The translations under genes and the position numbers were made by a program. 34,006 nt of DNA from positions 1-34,006 of the IMG/VR virus record IMGVR_UViG_3300044614_000743. The stretch is one strand, 5' to 3'. The DNA is from a virus. Within the stretch, counting starts at the first letter, position 1, and every line of letters begins with the position of its first letter. Below, piece by piece: positions 2,999 to 28,692 of the stretch. The notes below the pieces were generated by a model. The model made no database searches and was not told where the DNA came from. It saw only the letters and a list, made by a program, of their open reading frames with translations.

Positions 2999-3972
2999 TG
3001 ACCAAAATCTCCGTTGTTCGGGAGTATCGTGATAGATACCCTGACTTCCCTAATTTAAAATTGGCAAGAATTATCTATGCTGAGAACAAAGAGTTGTTTT
3101 CTTCAGTAGAGGCAATCCGTACTGCTATAAGAACAATTCAAGGGCAAGCAGGTAAGACTAATAGTGGGATAATAAAAACACATAGTCAAGGTCCAAGACC
3201 TTTTAATCCTTACAAACTACCTGAATCAGATGAGTCAACCTTTGAGCCTTACATAATCAAAGCTAAAAGGATATTAGGCTTATTTGATATCCACGCACCT
3301 TATCACTCTATTGGAGCCTTAACAGCAGCCTTAGACTATGCTAAAAAGGAAAAACCTGATGCTGTTGTTTTAGGAGGTGACCTTTTTGACTTCCACGGTC
3401 TCAGTAGATTCTTAAGAGACCCAAGAAAAAAAGACTTTGCAACAGAACTTTCTATTGGTTGCCAGGTAATAGAGGTCATTCAAAAGACTTTAAACTGTCA
3501 GATATATTTTAAGTTCGGTAACCACGACGAAAGATATCAGCATTATCTATGGCAGAAGTTAGGTGAGCTAAATGGAGTAGAGGACTTTGAGTTAGAGAAT
3601 CTAATTAAGAAAAGAGTCACAGGTATTAAATTTATTACCGATAAGCGGATAATAAAGGCTAATGACTTAAATATTGTTCACGGCCACGAATTTGCTTCCT
3701 CTATTATCAGTCCGGTAAACATAGCAAGAGGGCTTTATTTAAGGGCTAAGGCTAACACTATCTGTGGACATCACCATAGGTCATCAGAACATACTGAACA
3801 GAATATAGAGGGTAAGATTGTCACAACTTGGTCTGTTGGATGCCTTTCAGAACTCCATCCACAATATATGCCGATAAATTCTTGGAATCACGGGTTCTGT
3901 ATGGTAGATTTACACGGTTCCAAAGAGTTCGAGGTAAGGAATAAAAGAATTTGGAAAGGTCAAATCTTATGA
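2998..3972 (+). CDS. Calcineurin-like metallophosphoesterase
   Basis: 324 residues with all blocks of the binuclear metallophosphoesterase fold in order: DIH (Asp97, His99), GGDLFDFH (Asp128), GNHDE (174-178), HGH (228-230) and GHHH (257-260). An N-terminal ~85-residue extension (EYRDRYPDFPNLKLARIIY) looks like a small helical, possibly DNA-binding region. Related proteins are common in Bacteroidota phages and in this family hydrolyse phosphodiesters of nucleic acids or nucleotides; the substrate here is unknown. It sits downstream of the lysis genes at the end of the late operon, overlapping the small lipoprotein stop. Confidence 0.88.
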   Translation: MTKISVVREYRDRYPDFPNLKLARIIYAENKELFSSVEAIRTAIRTIQGQAGKTNSGIIKTHSQGPRPFNPYKLPESDESTFEPYIIKAKRILGLFDIHAPYHSIGALTAALDYAKKEKPDAVVLGGDLFDFHGLSRFLRDPRKKDFATELSIGCQVIEVIQKTLNCQIYFKFGNHDERYQHYLWQKLGELNGVEDFELENLIKKRVTGIKFITDKRIIKANDLNIVHGHEFASSIISPVNIARGLYLRAKANTICGHHHRSSEHTEQNIEGKIVTTWSVGCLSELHPQYMPINSWNHGFCMVDLHGSKEFEVRNKRIWKGQIL

Positions 3973-9901: not shown

Positions 9902-10111
9902 ATGGAAAAACTTAAACCAGGTAGGAAGCCACTTCCTGCCGAACAGAAGCGACATTTAGTGGCAGCCTTTCTTACAAAACAACAGAAAGAATTGATTATC
10001 AGTGCTTATGGAAGCCTAAGCAATGCGGTTAGAATGGAAATTCTTACAAAACTCATGCAAAATGGACATAGTAATAGCACTGGGGACGGGCAGCCGATGG
10101 ATGGACAATGA
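9902..10111 (+). CDS. Small basic putative DNA-binding protein
   Basis: 69 residues. KLKPGRKPLPAEQKRHLVAA followed by FLTKQQKELIISAYGSLSNA resembles small phage proteins with an AT-hook-like GRKP start and a ribbon-helix-helix-like body (a beta strand, then two helices). It is the first gene of the rightward operon, directly behind its own promoter, and may regulate the divergent promoters. Its last 50 bases overlap the next gene. The RHH call is tentative. Confidence 0.6.
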   Translation: MEKLKPGRKPLPAEQKRHLVAAFLTKQQKELIISAYGSLSNAVRMEILTKLMQNGHSNSTGDGQPMDGQ

Positions 10112-10751
10112 GCTGAAATATGCTCTCAGGTCAATAGAGGCTTATTTAGAGGGGTTTGACGGAAAGGTAGTCTTAGTAGGTGAGAAGCCTAAATGGATCA
10201 CTAATGTCCACTATATTCCTTTAGAGGACGTTCCGGGTAGAAAAAACTTTAGCATATTCCAAAAGATACTTACAGGATCTGATCACACCGATTCTGATGA
10301 CTTTATATTTTGGAATGACGACCATTTCTTGCTGAAGCCATTACACGTTAAAGACTTTAAATTTTGGTACGATAGTGACTGTCATTATTATGCTCATAAA
10401 TCTACTGGGCTTTATAAAAAAGCTATAACTAACACTAATAATTTGCCAGGCAAGAATAATTACTATACTGATATTCACACGCCTATTATTTACAACAAAC
10501 ACAGATTTGCTAAACTGATGCAGTTGCCCTGGAACCAAGAGTTTGTAATTAAATCAGCCTATACTAAAAATGAGGATGGTCCATTTGAAAGAATGGAGGA
10601 CTTAAAAGTTAATAGGCTATATCATTTGCACGAATGGATTGGTAGAGTGCATAACAAACTATTCCTATCGATTGGTTCTTATGCAGTAGATAATCAATTT
10701 AAAGTCTTTATTGATCAACTTTATCCAAATAAATCACGTTGGGAAAAATGA
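10062..10751 (+). CDS. Stealth-like glycosyl- or sugar-phosphate transferase
   Basis: 229 residues from ATG 10062. The N-terminus (MDIVIALGTGSRWMDNELKY followed by ALRSIEAYL) and the block FIFWNDDHFLLKPL (about 81-94) match the shape of conserved regions 1 and 2 of Stealth proteins, which transfer hexose-1-phosphates in capsule synthesis; the paired Asp residues probably bind metal. The later Stealth regions are not evident, so this may be a shorter GT-A relative. It overlaps the next gene by 4 nt (ATGA) and heads a group of three transferases. A GTG/TTG-type extension upstream would run into the preceding gene. Confidence 0.7.
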   Translation: MDIVIALGTGSRWMDNELKYALRSIEAYLEGFDGKVVLVGEKPKWITNVHYIPLEDVPGRKNFSIFQKILTGSDHTDSDDFIFWNDDHFLLKPLHVKDFKFWYDSDCHYYAHKSTGLYKKAITNTNNLPGKNNYYTDIHTPIIYNKHRFAKLMQLPWNQEFVIKSAYTKNEDGPFERMEDLKVNRLYHLHEWIGRVHNKLFLSIGSYAVDNQFKVFIDQLYPNKSRWEK

Positions 10752-11719
10752 GAATATTTATCCAAAGTCCAAACATTAATTCACCTCACGGTGGAATAAG
10801 AGTTATTAATGAATGGGCAAATAGATTGCAAGATTTAGGGCATAGAGTTGTTTTATACAATCAAGCTGGTGCATTAAGATGCACTTTGCAAGAGATAAAA
10901 TGTAAGATTGTAAACACTACTAACCTAATAAACAGATCAGATGTATTGATAGTAACAAGTCCTCACGGTGCTTTTCTTTTAGATAAAGATGTACCTAAGA
11001 AGTTTGTATTCCTACAAATGTTAGAGCATCTTTTCAATCCAACCAATGCAAAGTTTTTCAATAATGCTATAGCCTTATATAAAACCCATCACCCAATTAT
11101 CTCAATCAGTCAATGGAATATAAGAGTATTACAACATCAATTCCATAGAACAGCACCTATTCATTATGTAGGCAATGGTATTAATTTAAATGACTTTCCA
11201 ATATCTTATAAGGCTAAAGATTATAAGACAATTTTATTAGAATCACCTGAGCCTACTAATTACACAAAAGACACAGAAAAAATTGCTATCCAAGTGGCTA
11301 AGATTTTAAAGGAAAGAGGTTACATTATAAAAGGTTTTGGGCTAAAAGAGCCTAAGGACAAGATATTTGATGAATTCGTATTAAAGCCTGACCTAAAAAC
11401 AATGAATAGACTTTATGAGGAGGCAACACTACTTATAAAAGCTACTAAATATGATGCAAGGTCCACAGCTCCTTTAGAAGCTGGCACAAAAGGAACAGTC
11501 ACAATAAGAGCTATTACAGAGGGTGATGATGACCTAAATGAAACTAACTCATTTAAAGTAGGTTATTCAGTAGATAAACTTTATGATGCCACAATGTTTG
11601 CTTTGTCAAATCAAAATGAGTTAAATAAAAGAGCAAATACTATCAGGTCCTATGTCCAAATATATACTTGGGATTATTGGATAAATAAAATAAATGAAAT
11701 ATTATGTCAAAAGTCTTAA
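10748..11719 (+). CDS. Glycosyltransferase, GT-B fold (GT4-like)
   Basis: 323 residues. The N-terminal MRIFIQSPNINSPHGGIRVI followed by NEWANRLQDLGHRVVLYN is the classical start of GT4 enzymes (donor-domain glycine pair in GGIR). The second half has a Rossmann-like region (KTILLESPEP; YIIKGFGLKEP) and the block APLEAGTKGTVTI, where GT4 enzymes carry their conserved acidic loop. The typical E-x7-E pair is not clear, so it may be a diverged member. It probably adds a sugar to a host glycan or a phage component. The ATG overlaps the upstream stop; the 3' end overlaps the next gene by 16 bases. Confidence 0.75.
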   Translation: MRIFIQSPNINSPHGGIRVINEWANRLQDLGHRVVLYNQAGALRCTLQEIKCKIVNTTNLINRSDVLIVTSPHGAFLLDKDVPKKFVFLQMLEHLFNPTNAKFFNNAIALYKTHHPIISISQWNIRVLQHQFHRTAPIHYVGNGINLNDFPISYKAKDYKTILLESPEPTNYTKDTEKIAIQVAKILKERGYIIKGFGLKEPKDKIFDEFVLKPDLKTMNRLYEEATLLIKATKYDARSTAPLEAGTKGTVTIRAITEGDDDLNETNSFKVGYSVDKLYDATMFALSNQNELNKRANTIRSYVQIYTWDYWINKINEILCQKS

Positions 11720-24271: not shown

Positions 24272-24591
24272 TAGGAAATCTAAAACCAATAAAACTCTTA
24301 AAGTACACGCAAACCATTGACGCTGATGGGGATGCTACTGAAACTGTAGCTGAAACCTATAAGATGTGGGCTGAAGTGACTGATGGAGGTGGTGGTAGAT
24401 CACAAGCTGATGGTAAAACTGATATGTCAGGTTCTAAGACATTTAAGATACCATTTAGAGGCTATAATATTACTCCTGATTATAGGATTGAATATTTTGG
24501 TCAAACTTATTCTATTAGTAGCGTAACTAGAACTGGAGAAAAAAGATTTTATTGGGAAATTTCTGCAACTTCAATTTTTGAGCTTGATTAG
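24268..24591 (+). CDS. Head closure / head-tail joining protein
   Basis: 107 residues from ATG 24268 (ATGA overlap with the connector stop). Beta-rich: LLKYTQTIDADGDATETVAE followed by TYKMWAEVTDGGG, then DYRIEYFGQTYSISSVTRTG. The 'W.A.V' strand with a later 'R...g..y.I..v' segment is the pattern of SPP1 gp16-like stoppers. They plug the portal channel and receive the tail. Confidence 0.78.
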   Translation: MIGNLKPIKLLKYTQTIDADGDATETVAETYKMWAEVTDGGGGRSQADGKTDMSGSKTFKIPFRGYNITPDYRIEYFGQTYSISSVTRTGEKRFYWEISATSIFELD

Positions 24592-25570: not shown

Positions 25571-25996
25571 ATGGCAGATGCTACAACAATCTCGGGCAGT
25601 GTGATGTTTATCGAATACTCAGACACACCGAGTGGCGCAAGAAAGTCGGCTGTTTGCCAGAGTGAGGGATCATTCGATGGCAGCCGCAACGTAGTTAGTG
25701 ATGAAACTAACTGTGGAACTTTAAAAACATTAGGACCTCAAAACAACCGTTTGACTTTAAACGCAGTTGTTGACACAATTCCTGATGCAAATGAGGCTTC
25801 CTACAATGATTTCCAAACTCTTTATGCTAACAATACTAAAAAGTATTGGCATTTAACTGATTCAGCTGAGACTATCTATCATGGTGGTTATGGTTGGATT
25901 GCATCTCTTGGTCAGCAGAATACAAGCGGTCAAACTGCTAAGTTCACTATGACTATTGAGATTGAGGGAGACATTGACACTGAACCTGCAAGCTAA
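25571..25996 (+). CDS. Major tail tube protein
   Basis: 141 residues, beta-rich, with GSVMFIEYSDTPSGARKSAV followed by CQSEGSFDGSRNVVSDETNC, GNN-type loops, and a C-terminal TAKFTMTIEIEGDID strand as in TP901-1/lambda-type tube proteins. The position directly before the frameshifted tail-assembly chaperone pair is diagnostic. Polymerises to form the tail tube. Confidence 0.8.
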   Translation: MADATTISGSVMFIEYSDTPSGARKSAVCQSEGSFDGSRNVVSDETNCGTLKTLGPQNNRLTLNAVVDTIPDANEASYNDFQTLYANNTKKYWHLTDSAETIYHGGYGWIASLGQQNTSGQTAKFTMTIEIEGDIDTEPAS

Positions 25997-26001
25997 TAAC
26001 T

Positions 26002-26349
26002 ATGAAACAAATCACACATACAATCAACGGCAAACAAATAACACTGGATTTCGGAAAGATGTGGTTTTCCAAATATTATGGTGAAGCCACATCATCCAAT
26101 CCATTGTTAATGAATGAATTAATCGATAAGCCAAATAGTCAATTCACTTTTATTTGTGGATTAATTTATGGTGGTGTAAACTGCTATAATAAAACAAATA
26201 AAATAAATGAGTTTCTAACATTAGAACAAACTGAAGATTTGGTTGGTTCTATGACACAAGAAGAAGCTGCAGAATTGATTAATAAATTTGTTGATACCAA
26301 TTCATCCAAAGAACAGGGGGAAGTAAATCCCCAGGTGGCAAACCCTTAA
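26002..26349 (+). CDS. Tail assembly chaperone, short form (lambda gpG analogue)
   Basis: 115 residues: a small beta start (MKQITHTINGKQITLDFGKM), a helical middle (EFLTLEQTEDLVGSMTQEEA) and a short tail. In siphoviruses the gene between tail tube and tape measure encodes two chaperones linked by a programmed frameshift; the short form coats the tape measure. The stop at 26347-26349 lies inside the predicted stem-loop that would stimulate frameshifting. Confidence 0.78.
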   Translation: MKQITHTINGKQITLDFGKMWFSKYYGEATSSNPLLMNELIDKPNSQFTFICGLIYGGVNCYNKTNKINEFLTLEQTEDLVGSMTQEEAAELINKFVDTNSSKEQGEVNPQVANP

Positions 26350-26355
26350 CCTGGG
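26316..26355 (+). promoter_or_regulatory. -1 ribosomal frameshift signal
   Basis: Slip sequence G GGG GAA (26316-26322), with the P-site Gly codon able to re-pair perfectly in the -1 frame, then 7 bases, then a stem CCCAGGT (26330-26336) / ACCTGGG (26349-26355) with a 12-base loop. After the slip the -1 frame reads GGSKSPGGKPLTWDEM and on without stop. The heptamer is not of the ideal X XXY YYZ type: the A-site tRNA-Glu would rely on a U-G wobble. Confidence 0.7.
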
Positions 26356-26669
26356 ATGAAATGAGGTCGGAAGCATTCGGTCAAATTGGCCTACTTCCGC
26401 ATGAGTTTTATGATCTTGAATTTGATGAATATATCTTATTAAGAAACGGATATATTGATAAAGTTAAGACTGAATCTGTATTGCTGAGATTTCAAACTGC
26501 CTTAATATGCGAAACATTAGTAGGCAAAGGGAATGGAGTTCGGTTTGTAATGGATGCTTGGCAATTAGAATCTAAAGAAGAAATAACGCAAGATCAAATA
26601 AAAACCTTGCTGAAGGCGAAAAGAGAAAAGGATGCTTTAAAAAGGCTTAAACAGAAAGATAATGGCTGA
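26317..26669 (+). CDS. Tail assembly chaperone, T-domain made by -1 frameshift (lambda gpGT analogue)
   Basis: Read mainly as an extension of the 26002 gene: the fusion would be about 222 residues. The extension is KPLTWDEMRSEAFGQIGLLP followed by HEFYDLEFDEYILLRNGY and ends in a Lys-rich helix (KRLKQKDNG). The coding-like sequence upstream of the first possible ATG (26361) supports the fusion, although separate initiation at 26361 is possible. The T-domain is expected to contact the tail tube protein. The stop overlaps the tape-measure start by 8 bases. Confidence 0.75.
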
Positions 26670-28692
26670 ATTAAAAGTTAAAATAACCGCTGATGTAGCT
26701 TCTGCCACTGCTGGTATGAGCGCAGTAGAACAAAGAACAAAGCAGTTAGAAGCCAATATAGCCAAACTTCAATCTGTTATAGGAAATACAACTAGTCAGC
26801 AAAAACTAGTATCTGCTTTAAATGCACTAAAGCAACAGCAGACTGAATTAAATAGAGTATCTCAGTTTACAAAAGATAAACAAGGACAACTTGCAAGTAC
26901 AACAAACCAGGCTACTTTTGCTATGGGAAACTTTGCAAGAGTTGTGCAGGATGCTCCTTATGGTATTAGAGGTGTTGCAAATAACATTGATCCTCTAATA
27001 GAATCATTTACAAGATTAAAATTACAAACAGGTAGTACTGGAGGTGCTTTTAAAGCAATGTTAACTACACTTGCTGGCCCTACTGGTATACTTTTGGCTG
27101 TATCCACTGCTACATCATTATTAGTTGCTTTTGGAGATAAAATATTTAGCGCTAAAAAAGATGTAGATGAATTAAATATATCATTATTAAATCTTAATGA
27201 TAGTTTTGACGGAATAGATAATGTATTAAAGAATTTTAAAGATGAATTAAACTTTAATACTGAATTAAGTAAACTAAATCAGCAAGTTGCTGGTGTTAGT
27301 AATTCAACAATAGATTTAAACGAAGCACAAAGTAAAGTAGGTAATAGTGCTAAATATATTAATTTATTAAATTATTATATTGGTAGTCTTGAAGAAGGTT
27401 ATAAGAATACAACAAAAGAAGCTAATGATTTTTTAGATGCCGTTAAAGGCATAGGACAGGCAACCACAGGAACAGGTTTACAGGATTTACAAGCTGGAAC
27501 CGTTAATCTTGAAAAACCTACTAGTGCAATAGCAAAAGCTGCGAATAAAGAATTAGTAGCACTCTATGAAAATTTCCAATTAACCGGAAAAATTAATCTC
27601 GAATTTACTAAAAATTTAAGTACAGAAGATCAAAAAAGATTTTCTTTAATTGCTGCTAATGCTGAAAAATATACAAATCTTGTTGAATTAAGAACAGGCG
27701 CTTTAAGAGATTCTGCTATAGCGCAACAACAATTAAATGATTTAATTAATAGGCAAGAATTTGAAGCCTATGAGAAAGGAATAGAAATTAGACGAAAGCA
27801 ATATGAGGAATTTAAAAAGTTAGATTTACGAAACAGAAGATCAATTTTTGAATCAATAAATTTATTTAAACCAGCCGAATCTGATTCAACTTTTAGAGAT
27901 ACTTTAAATAATATTAAAAAGATTCAAGAGGCTTATTTAGATTTAACAAAGAAAAGAGAATTAAGATTAGATGTTATAAATAGAAATATTGTTATTACAT
28001 TAACTCCACAGTTAAAAACAACAGAATTACCAAAATCATTTGAAACCGATCTTAATAAAATAAAAAAGAAGATCACCGATAGTTTAAGTCCAGACGCAAA
28101 GAAAAATCAAGAAGCATTACAAGAAGTAGAAGAAAAATATAAAGAATACTCTAATAATATCATAAATATAGTTAAAGATATTAGACTCGAGGGTATATCT
28201 ACTATAGGTGCTGCACTTGGTGAAGCATTGGTTACAGGTGATATGAATAATTCATTTATGTCATTTGCTAATATTTTAGCATCAGGATTGGAAGCTATCG
28301 GTAAAGAATTGATTAAAATAGGATTATTAAGTGAAGTAGTACAGGAGGCTTTAAAAACATTATTTACACCTATTGGTGGCCCATTGGCAATTGCTGCAGG
28401 AGTTGGGTTAATCGCAGCTGCTACTGCATTAAGAGCAAGTTTATCACAAGGAGTTGGAGCAAGAGCATTAGGAGGTCCTGTAAGTGGTGGTAGTCCATAT
28501 ATAGTGGGTGAAAGAGGCCCTGAGTTATTTGTGCCAGCAGTAAGTGGTGGGATAGTTCCAAATAATCAAGTTGGTTCATTTATGGGTGGTGGAATGGGTA
28601 ATAGTGGTGGTAGAAGTTCGGTACTTAGAGGTCAAGATATTTTACTAGCTTACGCTAGAACACAAAGAAGTCAAATAAGAGTTAATGGGTAG
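26662..28692 (+). CDS. Tape measure protein
   Basis: 676 residues, largely helical. The N-terminal third is Gln/Lys-rich coiled coil (SAVEQRTKQLEANIAKLQSV), then FARVVQDAPYGIRGVANNID, a hydrophobic stretch (about 130-155, TLAGPTGILLAVSTATSLLV), more coiled coil, a second hydrophobic region near 570-590 (GPLAIAAGVGLIAAATALRA) and a Gly-rich end with ALGGPVSGGSPYIVGERGPE, very typical of tape measures. It sets tail length; at the usual ~1.5 angstrom per residue a tail of roughly 100 nm is expected. Base use is notably AT-rich compared with the head genes. Confidence 0.9.
   Translation: MAELKVKITADVASATAGMSAVEQRTKQLEANIAKLQSVIGNTTSQQKLVSALNALKQQQTELNRVSQFTKDKQGQLASTTNQATFAMGNFARVVQDAPYGIRGVANNIDPLIESFTRLKLQTGSTGGAFKAMLTTLAGPTGILLAVSTATSLLVAFGDKIFSAKKDVDELNISLLNLNDSFDGIDNVLKNFKDELNFNTELSKLNQQVAGVSNSTIDLNEAQSKVGNSAKYINLLNYYIGSLEEGYKNTTKEANDFLDAVKGIGQATTGTGLQDLQAGTVNLEKPTSAIAKAANKELVALYENFQLTGKINLEFTKNLSTEDQKRFSLIAANAEKYTNLVELRTGALRDSAIAQQQLNDLINRQEFEAYEKGIEIRRKQYEEFKKLDLRNRRSIFESINLFKPAESDSTFRDTLNNIKKIQEAYLDLTKKRELRLDVINRNIVITLTPQLKTTELPKSFETDLNKIKKKITDSLSPDAKKNQEALQEVEEKYKEYSNNIINIVKDIRLEGISTIGAALGEALVTGDMNNSFMSFANILASGLEAIGKELIKIGLLSEVVQEALKTLFTPIGGPLAIAAGVGLIAAATALRASLSQGVGARALGGPVSGGSPYIVGERGPELFVPAVSGGIVPNNQVGSFMGGGMGNSGGRSSVLRGQDILLAYARTQRSQIRVNG

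Follow-up and report, generated by a model that had tools for sequence, protein, structure and literature searches.

Two small open reading frames (ORFs) lie in different frames between the tail genes of this phage, and the question that they raise is whether they are translated separately or are joined by ribosomes that change frame before the first of them ends. Comparison with the junctions of related phages points firmly to the second answer. The site is, with high confidence, a −1 programmed ribosomal frameshift site of the lambda G/GT type, and the phage very probably makes a small amount of a longer tail chaperone by −1 slippage. A first-pass annotation of this DNA had already suggested that the two tail chaperone genes are joined by a −1 frameshift, and the comparative evidence supports that suggestion for a pair of the G/GT type, with heptamer, spacer and stem found in 87 of 87 junctions. 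The slip sequence and this kind of switch are already known; what is new is the phage group in which they occur, the covariation evidence and a possible pseudoknot.

Genes and geometry of the junction

The window, by which is meant the whole of the 34,006-base virus record analyzed (36% G+C), encodes a terminase large subunit, a portal protein, a Mu F-like protein and an HK97-type capsid protein, as evidenced by Pfam matches. The best-covered matches of the portal protein are Cellulophaga phages at ∼29% identity, with Vibrio-named records making up 85 of the 111 that matched, and the best matches of the tape measure protein are Cellulophaga phage phi10:1 and Flavobacterium phage 11b, with Salinibacter accounting for 182 of 200 records. 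The host of the phage is likely to be Bacteroidota-like, as far as sequence similarity indicates. No tRNA genes were detected in the window. Elsewhere in the record, two ORFs at 10023–11719 weakly match the Stealth CR2 and glycosyltransferase family 4 models, under the curated cut-offs, and are possibly sugar-modifying genes, and an ORF at 6–989 with a Peptidase_S74 (chaperone of endosialidase) domain is possibly part of a tail fiber.

The major tail protein gene (25571–25996; PHROG 1407, E = 8.4e-06) and the tape measure protein gene (26662–28692; PHROG 1538, E = 9e-16) flank both small ORFs (26002–26349 and, in the −1 frame, 26295–26669), and all of these features are on the + strand, as are those that follow. 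The upstream, G-like ORF (26002–26349, zero frame) encodes a predicted tail assembly chaperone of 115 aa, with relatives at 62 loci, and its 3′ end reads CAG GGG GAA GTA AAT CCC CAG GTG GCA AAC CCT TAA. The slip heptamer G GGG GAA (26316–26322), which falls across the zero-frame codons CAG GGG GAA, is separated by a 7-nt spacer (26323–26329) from a stem whose 5′ arm CCCAGGT (26330–26336) and 3′ arm ACCTGGG (26349–26355) pair perfectly over 7 bp around a 12-nt loop, and the zero-frame stop TAA (26347–26349) takes up the end of that loop and the first base of the 3′ arm. In the −1 frame, a TGA at 26292 is followed by the T-like ORF, which is open from 26295 to 26669, with conserved coding from the slip site at 26316 onward and a predicted fusion product of 222 aa. 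The ATG at 26361–26363, mechanically listed as a start, is the sole ATG, GTG or TTG of this frame as far as 40 codons beyond the slip site and is read here as an internal codon. The layout is that of a G/GT-type pair, with two small ORFs between tail genes, the second of them in the −1 frame and lacking a conserved start. The first-pass annotation had described the heptamer, a 7-base gap, a perfect 7-bp stem over the zero-frame stop and a −1 frame open ahead of any start codon, and all are present, the first ATG, GTG or TTG after 26295 being that at 26361.

There are three copies of GGGGGAA on the + strand of the window (353, 19367 and 26316), and only the copy at 26316 is followed by a perfect 7-bp stem (loop of 3–15 nt) starting 5–9 nt downstream. 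As a chance level, 226 of 33,946 window positions are followed by a perfect 7-bp stem at such a distance, and conservation in 87 of 87 junctions is far stronger evidence than this estimate from the window.

Under the proposed mechanism, most ribosomes would read the upstream gene to its TAA, and the short, 115-aa chaperone would result. A smaller share of them, paused by the hairpin (or pseudoknot) 7 nt downstream while GGG occupies the P site and GAA the A site, would slip by −1. The Gly-tRNA would re-pair perfectly on GGG, and the Glu-tRNA would do so on GGA by means of a middle-position G:U pair. Reading in the −1 frame would then yield the 222-aa fusion, ...KEQGE-SKSPGGKPLTWDE..., which, by analogy with lambda, would link tape measure and tail tube subunits in tail assembly. 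The sequences themselves show the geometry and its conservation, the covariation in the stem and the want of a conserved start codon, and from these we infer the frameshift, its frequency and the movement of these tRNAs.

The chaperone function of the pair is likewise a prediction. It follows mainly from gene order, to which are added family matches that are weak or distant and a moderate likeness of fold. The model of the G-like protein, made with a 24-sequence alignment, has a mean pLDDT of 69 and matched four BFVD entries named tail assembly chaperone at Foldseek probabilities of 0.97–0.99; others of that name matched at 0.20–0.75, alongside several entries named tail tube protein and many that are unnamed, and none of all these matches had E ≤ 0.001. 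Among the matches is the 139-aa protein S0A451 of Cellulophaga phage phi18:2 (probability 0.99), which has the length of gp54, the upstream small ORF of that phage, and is likened to it by length alone. A Foldseek search of the PDB with the same model gave no match. The model of the T-like protein has a mean pLDDT of 64, and its ORF matched PHROG 16333 at E = 0.1 only. When the T proteins of the window and of contig L346, an outlier considered below, were used to search a phage collection, no match was found. A search for the host gave a sole match in bacterial genome contigs (L175), which was rejected, since the similarity is confined to a short part of a different bacterial protein whose surroundings are not those of a chaperone gene.

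Conservation, covariation and folding of the signal

A search of viral contigs with the T-like protein gave 90 relatives, of which the best 80 were used, and a search with the G-like protein gave 62 loci, mainly on contigs already found with the T-like protein; searches with distant members or with the alignment added mainly L145–L149, L167 and L174. The 87 junctions compared are those of the window, L002–L081, L145–L149 and L174, leaving aside L167, which has the same element, and the contigs found only through the G-like protein, of which those bearing the pattern enter the pattern scan described below.

The heptamer is GGGGGAA in 86 of these junctions and GGGGGAG in one, and a Watson-Crick stem starts exactly 7 nt past it in all 87 (7 bp in 65, 6 bp in 22), with a spacer of variable sequence. 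The base before the GGG codon is G in 87 of 87, even though the codon that it closes encodes Gln, Glu, Pro, Met or Thr (CAG in 69, CCG in 7, GAG in 5, ATG in 3 and ACG in 3); elsewhere in these genes, Gln is encoded by CAG in 19% of cases, Thr by ACG in 7% and Gly by GGG in 13%. Counted from the start of the heptamer, the zero-frame stop lies at +31 in 59 of 81 junctions, at +28 in 1 and at +10 in 21. At +31 and +28 it falls within the stem-loop, and at +10 it falls ahead of the stem, so that non-shifting ribosomes would terminate there before melting it. The contigs L006, L012 and L048, each with its stop at 2469–2471, are among those with the stop ahead of the stem.

In hairpin-stimulated −1 frameshift signals, the stem is expected 5–9 nt downstream. 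The junctions studied here agree with this class in their 7-nt spacer (87 of 87) and in having a compensatory pair, with one of the seven pairs varying. That pair is the fifth, which is A-U in 57 and G-C in 30 of the 87 junctions, with no other pair observed. On a tree of the 61 distinct sequences among 86 junctions (L174, which is truncated, was dropped), built with the signal left out, pair 5 underwent at least four coupled two-sided switches. In a shuffle test on 20 chosen elements of equal length (14 A-U and 6 G-C), none of 500 shuffles matched the observed values for paired cells, for cells with a change on either side of the pair at once or for the covariation score, and two of the five measures were not above the shuffles, namely pairs with two-sided change (452/500) and further pair types (500/500). 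Sliding the 3′ arm by +1 left the covariation score unchanged (0.126), but only 57.1% of cells were then paired. The other six stem pairs are invariant among the 20 sequences, the covariation thus resting on one pair. An automatic consensus fold of the first alignment had given 6 pairs and no compensatory change, the stem being truncated because the aligner wrongly put a 3-nt gap, which belongs to the group with shorter loops, into the 5′ arm. A pattern scan of viral contigs, with both bases of pair 5 left free and the rest of a six-pair core fixed, found 92 stretches, and among their 32 distinct elements pair 5 is A-U in 17 and G-C in 15.

Codon use was compared in 56 distinct pairs of G and T nucleotide sequences from the window and the 80 loci (L145–L149 are not in this set), in columns where ≥90% agree in a degenerate amino acid. 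Among these columns of the −1 frame, a single codon is used in 5 of 9 within codons 1–18, vs. 0 of 52 within codons 19–111, and the codons at the signal are GGG, GGA, CCA, AAA and AGG. Single-codon use is also seen in 4 of 45 conserved columns of the G gene upstream of the signal, so that such columns are not unique to the signal in that gene.

In the free RNA (26316–26380), the G-run preferentially pairs with CCCC, and the fold is no better than that of shuffled sequences (z = 0.62; 148 of 200 shuffles equaled or bettered it). When the slip site is omitted, to represent a ribosome sitting on it, the window has the 7-bp stem (stem 1) as its minimum-energy fold at −12.6 kcal/mol, a stability that is not unusual (z = −1.03, with 31 of 200 shuffles at least as good). 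Six sequences were folded in this way. The window and L149 have stem 1 as their minimum-energy fold, those of L145 and L346 include it, that of L012 adds two inner pairs to it, and in L004 an alternative fold is better by 0.7 kcal/mol. The fold of L346 is clearly below its shuffles (z = −4.0), those of the others lying at z = −0.83 to −1.87. The predicted fold of L346 also has a second hairpin, of 9 bp, directly after the first stem (1569–1590). Rfam gave no match in 26200–26500.

It is possible, judging from the base pairing available, that the signal is an H-type pseudoknot, in which a candidate stem 2 would pair CCTTA (26344–26348) with TGAGG (26362–26366). The loop CCT is present in 87 of 87 junctions, and the AGG at 26364–26366, which is past both the stop and the stem, lies at a constant distance from stem 1 in all of them. 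This codon is AGG in 56 of 56 sequences, whereas the other four conserved Arg columns vary. Among the 20 equal-length sequences, 94% of stem 2 cells are paired, one pair is broken in 6 of 20, and no two-sided change was observed. In those six, CCT is found one base further on, so the pairing of stem 2 would have to slide. The candidate stem 2 and the loop CCT are absent in L346.

Other ways of reading the junction

The alternative that survives best is a variant of the preferred explanation, still −1 and ribosomal, in which the P-site Gly-tRNA alone slips from GGG to GGG with the A site unfilled. The junction peptide would then be ...EQGG-SK and not ...EQGE-SK, and the second codon of the heptamer would not matter. 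On base-pairing grounds this is attractive, since Gly re-pairing is perfect and Glu on GGA needs a middle-position G:U, yet all 87 junctions have either GAA or GAG as the A-site codon, and L346 has GAG, though neighboring residues vary, and tRNA-Glu could re-pair on GGA by base pairing where tRNA-Asp could not. Whilst the conserved A-site Glu could also be explained by a conserved Glu in the short protein, slippage of the P-site tRNA alone is considered rather unlikely.

It could also be that the downstream gene is translated alone from the ATG at 26361, by internal initiation or coupled re-initiation, and that no fusion is made. This ATG is 11 nt past the zero-frame stop in the window, as such a reading would have it, but across the 87 junctions the codon is ATG in 68, ATA in 12, TTA in 5 and TTG in 2, and an independent start at this position was rejected, since a start codon is not consistently kept there (19 of 87 are not ATG). 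L004, L007 and L023 are among the relatives whose −1 frame lacks any ATG, GTG or TTG as far as 40 codons beyond the slip site; P6, L11, W13 and D14 of that frame, which are ahead of the ATG, are invariant in 24 aligned members; and the codon-level constraint on the slip site and stem also argues against a lone start. Initiation only at 26361 is the outcome that the first-pass annotation had set against its own reading, and the ATA, TTA or TTG at this codon in 19 of 87 junctions speaks against it, leaving this explanation very improbable.

G-runs can serve as Shine-Dalgarno sequences for near-cognate starts (PMC4066793). A start driven in this way between the slip site and the −1-frame Trp codon was rejected, as this interval holds no ATG, GTG, TTG, ATA, ATT or ATC in the 87 junctions. 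CTG occurs there 31 times, and there may be a weak CTG start in the junctions that bear it; the window itself has none of these start codons, CTG included, between the slip site and the Trp codon.

Slippage of RNA polymerase on the G-run, restoring the frame, is very improbable. There is a homopolymer at the junction, and three named Bacteroidota phages have 8–9 A there. Transcriptional slippage generally takes a run longer than five G, however, and a stem that covaries should have no effect, from its downstream position, on a polymerase that has not yet left the run. That a sequencing or assembly error has split one gene can be dismissed as having a negligible chance, given that the two-frame layout recurs in 80 of 80 relatives examined, with the stop at +31, +28 or +10.

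Precedents and related phages

The slip sequence of lambda is G GGA AAG, and that of the preferred −1 frameshift here is G GGG GAA. In both, the genes overlap and the second is in the −1 frame, and in lambda the fusion is the minor product, described as binding the tape measure through its G part and the major tail protein through its T part (PMC5009743). In the phage group of the window, a conserved 6–7 bp stem lies 7 nt downstream of the heptamer.

The first-pass annotation had called the slip site non-standard. This holds against the canonical X XXY YYZ pattern, since the second codon, GAA, is not YYZ, but GGGGGAA has already been reported in phages (PMC10885494; PMC5506516). In the account of PRFect, the 'fivetwo' motif, a name that we read as five identical and then two identical bases, is GGGGGAA across all of about a thousand fivetwo motifs of the SEA-PHAGES data (PMC10885494). 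The heptamer, the gene type and the G:U re-pairing idea are the same here, with GGGGGAA at the tail chaperone overlap in 86 of 87 junctions, and the explanation first offered for this site, of Gly re-pairing and a wobble for Glu, agrees with the proposal of the PRFect authors that the Glu anticodon re-pairs on GGA through G:U (PMC10885494). The frameshifts annotated there are stated as not experimentally tested, and the data are described as biased to high GC (PMC10885494), in contrast to the window, with its 36% G+C and its portal matches to Bacteroidota phages.

Corynephage phi16 is described as having a putative −1 site GGGGGAA in its tail assembly genes together with a proposed H-type pseudoknot (PMC5506516), and it thus resembles the window, by description, in heptamer, direction of slippage, gene type and candidate pseudoknot; a proposed internal Shine-Dalgarno GAGG is a feature of phi16 (PMC5506516). 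In PMC3091744, the GGGGGAA string appears only in a ribosome-binding-site table, and the heptamers described as tested in Escherichia coli in PMC4066793 are of the X_XXZ_ZZN class, which excludes G_GGG_GAA. Experimental proof for the GGGGGAA heptamer was not found in the literature searched, and there was no report of a GGGGGAA-type site in Bacteroidetes/Flavobacterium phages among the literature matches listed by a limited search.

The SEA-PHAGES data are of actinobacteriophages. The junctions compared here come from phages far from those in which the heptamer was catalogued, and the selection seen on comparing them supports the view that G GGG GAR truly acts as a frameshift heptamer and is more than a convention of annotators. 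Should the A-site tRNA indeed re-pair by a middle-position G:U, the X XXY YYZ rule would be too narrow for phage annotation. Annotators can, in addition, join the two separately listed ORFs in related uncultivated phages.

Contig L346, which was found by the pattern scan, has a T-like protein that is distantly similar to that of the window (hhalign probability 76%, E = 2.3e-5) and that matches PHROG 16333 (E = 2.5e-19). Its junction, GGGGGAG-N7-CCCAGG...CCTGGG, is located where two small ORFs meet, and an 863-aa ORF follows these immediately, in a similar gene layout. In its sequence this outlier appears to support the signal. The sole further relatives of L346 that were found, L363 and L364 (45 and 44% identity), have AAAAAAAG (seven A and a G; 1461–1468 in both) in place of GGGGGAG, with the second ORF in the −1 frame. 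This shows that G-run and A-run sites occur in related chaperone pairs. In a more tentative reading, which could well prove wrong, a compact H-type pseudoknot (the loop CCU with the downstream AGG, 3–5 bp, in a sliding register) would drive tandem slippage in which the tRNA of the A site forms a middle-position G:U pair. The lineage would be one with A-run sites in its named relatives, and G GGG GAR-N7-CCCARG/CYTGGG would perhaps have been reached more than once, as in L346.

Those named relatives are phi10:1, phi18:2 and 11b. In them, as in the window, two small ORFs that differ in frame come directly before the tape measure gene, but the junction has an A-run and not a G-run. Their T-like proteins match PHROG 16333, to which the window protein comes no closer than the E value given above. 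Phage phi10:1 (L256) has 8 A at 3676–3683 and a second ORF in the +1/−2 frame, phi18:2 (L258) has a 9-A run at 24521–24529 in the same +1/−2 layout, and 11b (L257) has a 9-A run at 3653–3661 in a −1 layout. Given these runs and frame layouts, another slip mode is likely in the three phages, and the junctions of phi18:2 and 11b suggest transcriptional slippage or some such other mode. In phi10:1, the G-like ORF (3303–3689 of L256) is open and has no CDS annotated, falling in the gap gp084–gp086.
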